Assembly (NCBI GenBank): GCA_030653035.1
Contig: JAUSAB010000059.1
Coordinates: forward strand, 1-49,906
Reading direction: 5' to 3'
Source of the DNA: Desulfocapsaceae bacterium
GTDB lineage: Bacteria; Desulfobacterota; Desulfobulbia; Desulfobulbales; Desulfocapsaceae
Length of the DNA stretch: 49,906 nt
Below the pieces are notes generated by a model. It ran no database searches, had not been told where the DNA came from, and saw only the letters and a program-made list of their open reading frames with translations. Below are positions 33,990 through 49,514 of this stretch, piece by piece. Position 1 is the stretch's first letter. Each line of letters starts with the position of its first letter. The position numbers were made by a program, and so were the translations under genes.

Positions 33990-35579
33990 ATGAGTAAACA
34001 GCTTGAACAAGAAGTAGCCAAACGACGGACATTCGGCATCATCAGCCACCCGGATGCAGGAAAGACCACACTGACCGAGAAGCTCCTCCTCTTTGGCGGC
34101 GCCATCAATCTGGCCGGGGCCGTCAAGTCACGCAAGATAGCGCGACGCGCCACCAGTGACTGGATGGCTATTGAGCAGGAACGCGGCATCTCCGTTACCA
34201 CCTCGGTGATGAAGTTCACCTACCGCGATTACGAGGTCAATCTCCTCGACACCCCCGGCCATCAGGACTTTTCCGAAGATACCTACCGGGTGCTCACCGC
34301 CGTTGATTCGGCGATCATGGTCATCGATAACGCCAAAGGGGTTGAGGCCCAGACCGAAAAGCTGATGGAGGTGTGCCGGATGCGCAACACGCCGCTGATC
34401 ACCTTCATCAACAAACTGGACCGGGAGGGAATGGAACCGCTCGACATCCTGGCCGAGATCGAAGAAAAACTGCAGATCGAATGCGCCCCGATGTCCTGGC
34501 CCATCGGCATGGGCAAGACCTTCAAGGGTGTCTATAACCTCTATCGAAAGCAGCTCCACCTCTTCACCCCAGGCCAGGAAACCCGTAGCCAGCAGGGAAT
34601 CACCATCGACTCCCTGGATGATCCCCGCCTTGACCAACTGGTAGGGGCCCGTCAGGCCAATGACCTGCGCACTGACCTTGAACTTCTGGCCGGGGCGGCC
34701 AACCCCTTTGAGTATGACCAGTTTATGAGGGCCAATCAGACCCCGGTCTTCTTCGGCAGCGCCGTCAATAATTTCGGTGTCCAGGAACTCCTTGATGCCT
34801 TTGTGGAAATGGCCCCTCCGCCCGGTCCACGGGCAGCAGTCACCCGCGACGTGGATCCCACCGAGGAAGATTTCTCCGGTTTCGTTTTCAAGATCCAGGC
34901 CAACATGAACCCGGCCCATCGCGACCGTATCGCTTTTTTCAGGATCTGCTCCGGAAAATTCACCCGCGGCATGAAGGTGCGCCATCACCGCCTCGATAAA
35001 GACATCACCCTGGCCAATGCCACCATCTTCATGGCCCAGGACCGGGCCAATGTCGAAGAGGCCTGGCCCGGAGACATCATCGGTCTGCACAACCACGGCA
35101 CCATCAAGATCGGCGACACCTTTACCCCCAAGGAACCGCTCAAATTCACCGGCATCCCCAACTTTGCCCCTGAGCACTTCCGCAGAGTCTTGTTAAAAAA
35201 CCCCTTGAAGATGAAGCAGTTACAAAAGGGATTGATTCAACTGGCGGAAGAAGGCGCAGTCCAGGTATTCCGGCCGCTCATCGGCGCTGATTATATCATG
35301 GGCGCAGTGGGCGTTCTCCAATTTGAAGTCACCATGGCCCGGCTGAAGAATGAGTACGGCGTCGATGCCGTTTATGAACCGATCAATTACCAGGCGGCAC
35401 GCTGGGTGACCTGCACAGACCCGAAAAAAATGGCGGAGTTTGAAAGAAAAAATCAGGCGACACTGGCCCGGGATGCGGAAGGATTCTTGACCTATCTTGC
35501 CCAGAATGAATGGATGCTGAACTTTTTCATGGAAAAATGGCCAGCCATTGAATTCCATAAAACCAGAGAGAATATTTAG
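33990..35579 (+). CDS. prfC: Peptide chain release factor 3
   Basis: RF3 is a translational GTPase that recycles RF1/RF2 after termination. The 529-residue length is typical. The G domain has G1 [16 protein letters not shown], the switch region [14 protein letters not shown]3 [16 protein letters not shown] and G4 FINKLDREG. The rest follows the RF3 layout (domain 2 beta-barrel about 300-390, C-terminal domain to 529). It is preceded by a 165-base gap and followed directly by a strong hairpin. Confidence 0.95.
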
Positions 35580-35630
35580 GAGCAGTTACAGAACAGCCGA
35601 CGCTGTTCCGGCTGCTCTGTTTACTGCTCC
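35579..35630 (+). terminator. Long imperfect hairpin at the prfC stop codon
   Basis: Arms 35579-35599 and 35609-35630 pair over about 19 bases, with one small internal loop and one mismatch, closing on a nine-base loop. The hairpin begins at the prfC stop. No clear T-run follows, so it may protect the 3' end or be a relative of the repeats that follow, rather than a classic terminator. Confidence 0.5.
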
Positions 35631-35905
35631 TTATGCCGCTTCCAAGAAACAGCAATCTTTTCCGGCTGTTTCTTGGAGTGGCGTCTGGCAGATAACGGCC
35701 AGTGGTTGTAAAGATCAACCGGTCAAACACAATGAGCAACGTTTTTTTTGCTCATTTCTTAACGGTTTCTTATGCCGCTTCCAAGAAACAGCAATCTTTT
35801 CCGGCTGTTTCTTGGAAGCGGCGTCTGGCAGATAACGGCCAGTGATTGCGAAGATCAACCGGTCAAACGCAATGAACATGCTTTTTCGTTCATTACGTGA
35901 CAGTT
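35630..35905. repeat. Two tandem copies of a 139-base hairpin-rich repeat
   Basis: Copy 1 is 35630-35768 and copy 2 starts at 35769; both begin CTTATGCCGCTTCCAAG and run in the same direction. A third start (CTTTATGTCG) appears near 35906, overlapping the next gene's stop codon. Each unit has three inverted repeats: a long stem (19 perfect pairs in copy 2, 35774-35792 with 35804-35822; 12 in copy 1), CTGGC/GCCAG, and an AATGA(G/A)C stem. The last stem shows a compensatory change between copies (AATGAGC/GCTCATT against AATGAAC/GTTCATT), which argues for conserved structure. Reading frames across the copies are not conserved. Confidence 0.8.
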
Positions 35906-35907
35906 CT

Positions 35908-36216
35908 TTATGTCGTGGAATCCTCTTCTTGTTCATCATCATCGACAAAGATCAGGGCCTGCCCGGTAGACAGGGCTGTAGCCACCTTCTTTCTGGCCGT
36001 GGTGATAATCCGCTGAATCGTTCCTCGCGATACCCCCATAAACTGCCCAGCCTCTTCCTGAGTCAATCCGTCACGATCACAAAGCCGGAGGGATTCAAGC
36101 TCGTCACGATGCAGTTCTATTCGATCAAGTTTGCTTAAAGGAGTACCAGTAGGCTTAAAGGCCCGGCCACAGAAGTTCCCCTGACAATGTCGTATTTTTT
36201 TTGGACGTGGAGACAT
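35908..36216 (-). CDS. UPF0251 (DUF134) family DNA-binding protein
   Basis: The 102-residue protein opens MSPRPKKIR, carries Cys in CQGNFCGRAFKPTG, and has a sigma-70 region 4-like helix-turn-helix at about 47-75 (GLTQEEAGQFMGVSRGTIQRI). The acidic tail is DDDEQEEDS. UPF0251 proteins are small predicted regulators often found beside NifX/NifB-like genes, as here. The target is unknown; a nine-base inverted repeat at 36291-36341 upstream is a candidate site. Confidence 0.87.
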   Translation of the reverse strand: MSPRPKKIRHCQGNFCGRAFKPTGTPLSKLDRIELHRDELESLRLCDRDGLTQEEAGQFMGVSRGTIQRIITTARKKVATALSTGQALIFVDDDEQEEDSTT

Positions 36217-36290
36217 GTTGTTCTTTTTTGCAGTTAGAAGAAGCTGTTATAATACAATAATATCGTCACCAGGATGGCCAAAACAGCATA

Positions 36291-36341
36291 AGGAGCCGTA
36301 ACGAAACATTAAAAAAACAGGGTTATTCCGTAACGGCTCCT
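36291..36341. promoter_or_regulatory. Inverted repeat upstream of the UPF0251 gene
   Basis: AGGAGCCGT (36291-36299) and ACGGCTCCT (36333-36341) form a perfect nine-base inverted repeat around 33 bases. It lies about 75-125 bases before the UPF0251 start and after the NifX-like gene. No T-run follows on either side, so an operator or an mRNA processing hairpin is more likely than a terminator. Confidence 0.4.
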
Positions 36342-36450
36342 AAACAAATATGGCAGTTTGCATGCGTTGACACACACAGACTGCCATCATCAATTCCTTC
36401 TTTTTATACTGCAGATGAAGGAAAAAATCAAATATTTAGGTTCCTGTCAA

Positions 36451-36840
36451 TCAATGATGGCAATTACTGCCACCACCACAGACCTGATCCGCATGCATAA
36501 TTGGCAATTTACCTGCCACAAAATGTTCAATAACTGCCGCCGCATCAGGGATACTGTTTCTATCAGCCCAATACACTTCAATCCCCACCTGATTAAAACC
36601 CCGTAAAGGGTTAGCGCCCATACCGCCCACCACAATGGCATTCACATTGGCGACATTAAGGGTACTCACCGGCACCATGCAGCCACCGGCACCATGTTCA
36701 GGTGTTGGGATCATTTCCACCGTTTTGATGTTTTTATCATCATCCAGCTCAACCACGGTAAAGACATCACAATGACCAAAATGTTCTGAACGACGGGCCT
36801 GCATTCCCCCTGGATTATTTGTCGGAATAGCTATACGCAT
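36451..36840 (-). CDS. NifX/NifB-like dinitrogenase iron-molybdenum cofactor-type protein
   Basis: The 129-residue protein has the family opening MRIAIPTNN and the motif RRSEHFGHCDVFTVVELDD (about 17-35), followed by VVGGMGANPLRGF (about 70-82). The C-terminus has CGGGSNCHH, a plausible metal ligand set. Proteins of this fold bind iron-molybdenum or iron-sulfur clusters in nitrogenase assembly, but small stand-alone members in anaerobes have unknown roles. No nif genes are nearby. GGAG precedes the ATG. It is followed by the UPF0251 regulator-like gene. Confidence 0.85.
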   Translation of the reverse strand: MRIAIPTNNPGGMQARRSEHFGHCDVFTVVELDDDKNIKTVEMIPTPEHGAGGCMVPVSTLNVANVNAIVVGGMGANPLRGFNQVGIEVYWADRNSIPDAAAVIEHFVAGKLPIMHADQVCGGGSNCHH

Positions 36841-49437: not shown

Positions 49438-49514
49438 TGGTGGGCGAGGCGGGATTCGGACCCGCGACCTTCGGCTTCGGAGGCCGACACTCTATCCAGC
49501 TGAGCTACCCGCCC
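49438..49514 (-). tRNA. tRNA-Arg (anticodon CCG)
   Basis: The minus strand folds as a standard cloverleaf. The acceptor 5' strand GGGCGGG pairs with CTCGCCC (one G-T pair), followed by discriminator A and an encoded CCA. The D arm contains AGCTCAGCTGGATAGAG, the T arm GGTCCGAATCC. The anticodon stem TCGGC/GCCGA closes the loop CTCCGAA, giving anticodon CCG, which reads the Arg codon CGG. A TATAGA hexamer nine bases upstream could be its -10 box. Confidence 0.95.

Follow-up and report, generated by a model that had tools for sequence, protein, structure and literature searches.

A tandem hairpin repeat at the prfC stop codon of a Desulfocapsaceae bacterium as a probable member of a family of small mobile palindromes

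Introduction

What kind of sequence is a pair of hairpin-rich tandem repeats lying between two bacterial genes, and does a base change that is matched on both arms of one of its stems reveal selection on RNA? The locus that raises this question lies in a stretch of 49,906 nucleotides from a Desulfocapsaceae bacterium (contig JAUSAB010000059.1), here called the window. An earlier note on this DNA had read the repeats as a structure under selection, i.e., a small RNA, a REP-type element, or a 3' stabilizer between convergent genes. Our analysis gives a probability of roughly 0.8 that the tandem hairpin repeat belongs to a family of small mobile palindromes that occur dozens of times per genome in an uncultured bacterial genus. 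Just as probably, the array in the window is a long, tandemly expanded form derived from a mobile palindromic element of the MITE-like, non-autonomous type.

Results

Layout of the array in the window

Two direct copies are indeed present at 35630-35768 and 35769-35908, with matched blocks spaced 139 and 140 bases apart. Copy 2 carries the perfect 19-pair stem that had been described (35774-35792 with 35804-35822); the equivalent stem of copy 1 has an exact run of 13 pairs, the remainder being broken by a G:U and a one-base gap. The last hairpin does show the paired change (AATGAGC/GCTCATT in copy 1 versus AATGAAC/GTTCATT in copy 2). When folded against dinucleotide shuffles, the hairpins of the two copies are strong (z of -6.8 and -7.0), and across both strands of both copies z ranges from -6.3 to -7.8, with none of 200 dinucleotide shuffles equally good. 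The limits drawn for the repeat hold only for the two-copy layout and not for its start, because an additional hairpin at 35579-35630 precedes it at the stop codon of prfC (model match 35576-35692). Nor is the 139-base "copy" a whole element: it consists of one hairpin (B), a tail, and part of another hairpin (A). The gene prfC encodes release factor 3 (RF3 domains are present) and its reading frame ends at 35579. The features in and next to the array are as follows:

35576-35578, plus strand: TTA target at the left end, which together with G35579 forms the TAG stop codon (35577-35579) of prfC
35579-35630, plus strand: hairpin A1 (GGAGCAGTTACAG ... CTGCTCC), with TTA on either side; covariance-model match
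35633-35684, plus strand: hairpin B1 (ATGCCGCTTCCAAGAAACAGC ... GCTGTTTCTTGGAGTGGCGT), from folding and the aligned structure
35685-35729, plus strand: tail with small hairpins, from folding
35730-35769, plus strand: partial hairpin A2, i.e., inner stem and 3' arm (AATGAGC ... GCTCATT) without the left outer arm; model match 35710-35832
35772-35824, plus strand: hairpin B2 with the perfect 19-pair stem, from sequence and folding
35825-35869, plus strand: tail of the second copy, from sequence
35870-35907, plus strand: partial hairpin A3 (AATGAAC ... GTTCATT), site of the paired change, from sequence
35908-35910, minus strand: TTA at the right end of the array, equal to the TAA stop codon of a DUF134 gene (35908-36216), from sequence, reading frame, and domain
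36243-36340, minus strand: plain core copy, TTA followed by GGAGCCGTTACGGAATAACC ... ATAACAGC; model match 36233-36343 with 44.2 bits

The array thus runs from the stop codon of prfC to that of the convergent DUF134 gene, and the region of hairpin A1 (35575-35640) folds at -32.7 (z -6.3). Some 330 bases further downstream, the opposite strand carries the plain core copy, which has TTC instead of TTA at its right flank, and genome G015 has a copy at the orthologous place. Long A-B forms of the window type retain the left end (TTA followed by G..GCCGTTA...), hairpin A, an inner TTATGCCG, and a hairpin B; their right end, also in the window, is often worn and was directly seen in few cases. The 139-base unit of the array comprises half of A, B, and the tail. 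Similar tandem units occur elsewhere (second matches in L140, L147, L157, L195, and L197; also L002 and L005), and such tandems probably arose when replication slipped between the hairpins of a single element.

A dispersed family with covarying stems

The suggestion that the repeat might have further copies is borne out. The window's own genome (G000) holds copies at 39 places with E<=2e-8, and a covariance model finds matches in all 17 genomes of the genus, with 19-37 per genome among the 37 candidates scored for each. BLAST gives 67 matches to the repeat in the window's genome, part of which are reverse-strand self-matches of the palindromes. The covariance model yields 137 matches at E<=1, 42 of them above 60 bits, a count that covers both strands and includes part of the palindromes twice. 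Across all relatives, 40 of 97 genomes have model matches, and those from outside the genus are weak (best E 1.9e-8). A pattern scan of named genomes returned 22 stretches, all from metagenome-assembled genomes, mostly of Desulfobulbaceae or Deltaproteobacteria and some of them the same contigs as in G002, G004, G008, G014, G015, and G016. The core had no match among plasmids and phages.

Covariation goes well beyond the single pair noted before. In an alignment of 31 own-genome copies starting with TAG, for which a two-hairpin structure had been written, 16 of 32 pairs are altered on both sides, which none of 500 shuffles reproduced. Pairing is retained in 92.5% of the alignment cells; shuffled alignments reach 86.1%, and sliding the partner by 1-3 columns brings the value to 34-56%.

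Ends, target, and direction of insertion

The core of the element spans about 100 bp and reads (TTA)GGAGCCGTTACGAAATAACATGGCC...hairpin A...TTATGCCG...GGCCATGTTATTTTTTTACAGCGGC(TTA). Its terminal inverted repeats are imperfect (GCCGTTACGAAATAACATGGCC on the left, GGCCATGTTATTTTTTTACAGCGGC on the right), and 109 intact copies lie between two TTA, with lengths of 48-233 bases and a median of 100; these copies were selected for both TTA, and another deduplication plus the G055-type copies gives 110. Terminal repeats, size (below 300 bp), lack of coding capacity, and copy number are those of a prokaryotic MITE. Among 133 paired ends, TTA is found on the left in 119 and on the right in 107 and TAA on the left in 4, in a scan whose pattern itself held TTA with 4 mismatches allowed. 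With a pattern lacking TTA, the left flank is still TTA in at least 117 of 156 cases, and the G055-type copies have it in 11 of 11, one of these 11 being located in G019. Since TTA nearly always stands at the left end on the element's own strand, insertion is oriented and 3' of TTA, as in the IS200/IS605 group.

Three comparisons of filled and empty sites show a single TTA in each empty site, two in speA and one at L227, again as for a MITE. In speA, the filled site of G000 (...TATAGCGGC TTA GGGTATC, i.e., ...AGCGGC-TTA-GGGTATC) compares to the empty site TTAGGGTATC in G004, and that of G008 (...CAGCGGC TTA GGATAG) to TTAGGATAT in G015. At L148 of G015 the filled site reads TTA-GGAGCC...CAACGGC-TTATTTCC, with L227 of the window's genome being empty (TTATTTCC). 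From these comparisons it follows that the unit lies between two TTA. We had considered TTAG as a four-base target and dropped it in favor of TTA, because the empty L227 reads TTAT and because some kdsA stops read TTAA.

Non-autonomous elements of the IS200/IS605 kind make no target duplication, and the site at their right end is part of the element. Here, the target and the right-end motif are both TTA, so that a target duplication and an element-borne site look alike. The terminal inverted repeats and the TTA on both sides would therefore also suit a DDE-type MITE (e.g., IS5-like) with a true 3-bp target duplication, and IS5-like elements do make 3-bp TNA duplications. However, such a reaction is blind to direction and should put TAA and TTA at the left end in roughly equal numbers, whereas TTA was seen in all G055-type copies and in 119 of the 133 pairs versus 4 with TAA. 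We consider this narrower form of the mobile-element reading doubtful. Because the left end faces TTA and hardly ever TAA, we favor a strand-specific, IS200/IS605-like reaction that acts in trans, and an enzyme of this sort is, tentatively, our leading candidate for moving the element.

Search for an autonomous copy and a transposase

The element would be moved by a transposase supplied in trans. In a search that covered part of each genome, none of 228 left ends belonged to an autonomous copy (a right end being visible only if it lay in the same locus), and 19 more stretches contained none either. Candidates for such copies were rejected: 13 left/right pairs more than 450 bases apart span host genes (judged by eye and longest reading frame), and the partial ends in L466, L468, L472, and L473 contain another nested repeat or host genes in the part covered.

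We also considered that the family might be of the REP/BIME kind, spread by a RAYT (Y1) transposase that recognizes a hairpin tagged with TTAG in place of GTAG. An oriented tag beside a hairpin, the high copy number, and tandem mosaics would fit this idea, as would the presence of Y1 genes in all 17 genomes of the genus. However, none of the Y1-transposase loci examined (35 of 75 matches, with flanks up to about 1.5 kb) has a left end of the element, i.e., no Y1 gene is flanked by it as RAYT genes are. The covariance model R1 found no match at seven own Y1 loci, a loose right-end pattern gave 20 scattered look-alikes at the 35 loci, and the copy-rich G015 has one Y1 fragment only. The tag also differs from the unpaired GTAG-type tetranucleotide in being TTA plus a paired G (A3-U61 in 30/31 copies, G4-C60 in 31/31), even where it reads TTAG (81 of 84 strong copies), and the core is bounded by long-range terminal repeats and flanked by TTA at either end. 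A RAYT-driven spread, likewise a narrower form of the mobile-element reading, is unlikely. As a separate observation, L046:1438-2445 encodes a Y1 transposase fused to a DnaA C-terminal domain that is unlinked to the element.

Recent copies and variants

Recent bursts of the core form are seen in G014 and G001. In G055, a member of another genus, there are 11 identical copies and 3 of 99% identity, each of 105 bases, and G074 from another family has 17 matches with up to 90% identity.

Several variants were noted alongside. A second repeat (GCAGGCCAGGGA(C/T)GGCC...GCGACCGG, with variants) is nested at one and the same position of hairpin A in many copies, chiefly in G014 (L005, L013, L029, L386, L389-L391, L394, L395, L397, L399, L400, L402, L403, L404, and L405). 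A different inverted-repeat element with ends like GAGGCTCTTGCAAAA / TTTTGCAAGAGCCTC sits within copies at L473:2785-2930, L466:4500-4730, and L472. Minimal copies of about 48 bases have both ends and scarcely any interior and are mostly flanked by TTA (L357, L383, L393, L480, and L481). At L465:4044-4101 of G055, the left hairpin alone lies between TTA and TAA, and half an element may thus also be able to insert or persist. Orthologous copies without hairpin A and with TTAG-ATGCC at the left are found at L008:1499 and L038:1702, compared to L134 and L198; this loss fits a deletion between the ATGCCG of A and the ATGCCG of B.

Coincidence with stop codons

The first base of the element is G, so that TTA followed by the element forms a TAG stop codon, as at prfC. 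Among 84 strong copies from seven other species, 81 start with TTAG, and the TAG is in frame with an upstream reading frame of at least 80 codons in 49 (versus 3 and 8 in the other frames). The 31 own copies, which had been picked for beginning with TAG, have it in frame in 18 cases (5 and 2 in the other frames). The element's TTAG coincides with a stop of a simple gene caller in 40 of 81 cases versus 10 of 464 other TTAG in the same loci, which had been selected for containing elements. Where the upstream gene is in sense, 41 of 55 copies lie at distance 0. Core copies show an in-frame stop on the left in 28/109 (versus 6 and 5) and on the right in 17/109 (versus 3 and 8). Of 359 stops scanned without bias in 443 kb of the window's genome, 3 of the 29 TTAG stops and none of the 330 others are followed by a stem of at least 12 pairs that starts at offset 0-1.

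The coincidence differs with similarity to the active forms: it is 4/21 for the newest copies (>=95%), then 7/29 and 16/60, and 49/84 in the long forms. The difference between newest and long forms has a p of 0.0014, to be read with the age classes differing in structure and with the 84 long copies including orthologs and so not being independent. In the newest copies the frames are 4 versus 1 and 2, i.e., without clear enrichment among as few as 21. This suggests that stop-codon copies are enriched through retention at harmless sites rather than through targeting, and a weak insertion preference for stop codons may exist in addition. Insertion into a T-TAA or T-TAG stop leaves TAG, and the second TTA on the other side is usable as TAA by a convergent gene. 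Copies elsewhere were presumably lost more often and those at stop codons kept because the genes there stay whole.

Orthologous gene ends and the question of an RNA role

We followed the element at the ends of four genes across orthologs. Of the 13 species readable at prfC, 12 have a hairpin that begins at this stop codon (the exception is G010 with TATAG; G012 is outside the count); among these hairpins are at least three A stems and four B stems of unrelated sequence. In acsB, 13 of 15 orthologs have a hairpin at the stop codon, and G001 and G010 end in GTAG with none there; the folding energy is -24 to -46.5 kcal/mol for ten of these hairpins, and the other three, in G002, G011, and G016, have decayed to -9 to -16. 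Among 15 speA orthologs, four have the element at a TTAG stop (G000, G008, G013, and G014), five have TTAG without it (G002, G004, G006, G015, and G016), three have another stop without it (G003, G005, and G009), and three a different or partial hairpin (G001, G011, and G012). In kdsA, it is present in 3 of 14 orthologs (G000, G013, and G014) and absent from 11, which end in TTAA (G006, G008, G012, and G015), TTAG (G002, G010, G011, and G016), or GTAA (G003, G005, and G009). These kdsA endings are in line with TTA as the target.

Pairing is thus often, but not always, kept while the sequence turns over. Selection on RNA could be the cause, as could gene conversion among copies or the repair of imperfect palindromes. 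The first of these would make the family a structured RNA kept by selection, with hairpins at mRNA 3' ends that block exonucleases or signal ribosome release or termination, the mobile origin being mere history. The both-side changes in half of the aligned pairs speak for it, as do a U:G pair on the sense strand at columns 64-117 in 27/31 copies, the prfC hairpin, which keeps its place at the stop codon while its stem sequences differ widely, the greater stop-codon coincidence of older and longer forms, and the ten well-paired acsB hairpins, which could also mean selection. Against it stand the three decayed acsB hairpins, the absence of the element from 2/15 acsB, 11/14 kdsA, and 8/15 speA orthologs, and the lack of a canonical terminator or of an Rfam match above cut-off, and we judge this explanation distinctly unlikely.

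A scan of 35400-36500 for intrinsic terminators (loops of 3-8 only) gave one site on the minus strand inside prfC and none in the element. With Rfam 15, only a tRNA exceeded the gathering score in the window (tRNA-Arg (CCG) at 49438-49514, its sole tRNA), and four loci with copies gave five matches, all far under cut-off. A dedicated small RNA was rejected on this ground and since presence or absence varies between species. A placement of copies always between convergent genes is not supported either: 15 of the 84 strong copies lie there, with both genes in the element's direction in 40, both opposite in 16, divergent genes in 12, and 1 unclassed. Adjacent gene pairs in the background are ++ 380, -- 299, +- 135, and -+ 137, and the copies show no marked preference for convergent pairs. 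What survives of the structural reading in the earlier note is a REP-like multi-copy palindrome with covariation, often at gene 3' ends, and not a dedicated small RNA or an always-convergent stabilizer.

Because the element is a mobile palindrome and 3 of 13 orthologous acsB hairpins have decayed, paired changes are here no proof of selection on RNA. An RNA function is possible and unproven; transcribed hairpins may protect mRNA 3' ends solely as a side effect.

Discussion

The mobile-element reading explains the array at prfC as a local expansion of an element that is found between TTA motifs throughout a genus, and the habit of sitting on stop codons is its unusual part. A mobile palindrome can settle on stop codons harmlessly, because its first base and its second TTA give both neighboring genes their stops back. 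One could go further and see in it a portable gene end that has been domesticated: the last base of the stop codon comes from the element, as does a hairpin starting within that codon, landed copies are selectively kept with stems rebuilt by paired changes, and numerous housekeeping genes in the genus (prfC, acsB, speA, and kdsA) thereby share an interchangeable kind of 3' end. We regard this as improbable.

Beyond the locus itself, 17 species with dozens of copies in most of them and with both filled and empty sites form a natural data set on how pairing is kept during sequence turnover and on RNA selection versus repair of imperfect palindromes. It also carries a caution, i.e., that covariation in repeated hairpins alone does not prove a functional RNA.

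The literature searched, including parts of PMC3733652, PMC12306157, PMC2817692, PMC10969869, PMC2229807, PMC3049150, and PMC5896051, yielded no description of this element, though several known systems share features with it. One of them is Chunjie, a MITE of Geobacter uraniireducens that is likewise short, with terminal repeats, flanking direct repeats, tens of mostly intergenic copies, and many partial ones; however, it measures 178-235 bp compared to a core of about 100 bp here, and the comparison is with its description in a review and not with its sequence (PMC10969869). This review of prokaryotic MITEs does not mention "stop codon". QMITE2 of Coxiella burnetii resembles our element in being a MITE inserted at the 3' end of enhC: in one strain a stop codon immediately precedes it, and in another it lies within the reading frame (PMC5896051). 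Yet QMITE2 is a single case of C-terminal change, while here the junction itself makes the stop, and does so in many genes.

Pneumococcal BOX elements, with hairpins arranged as boxA-boxB(n)-boxC and over-represented between convergent genes, are similarly mobile and modular with repeated inner modules (as outlined in PMC3049150), but they differ in sequence and phylum. In our element, the inner unit combines B with half of A, and the left end also serves as a stop codon. REPs of the GTAG/CGTC type and their RAYTs offer tagged palindromes of 20-40 bp that are clustered near the 3' ends of reading frames (within less than 20 bp in P. entomophila; from parts of PMC3733652 and PMC2817692), whereas TTA plus G replaces GTAG in our element and no element-flanked RAYT was found. 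Finally, REPs of E. coli at no more than 15 nt from stop codons stall ribosomes (as cited in the relevant part of PMC12306157) and thus likewise place a strong hairpin next to a stop codon, but in the family described here the hairpin starts inside the stop codon itself.
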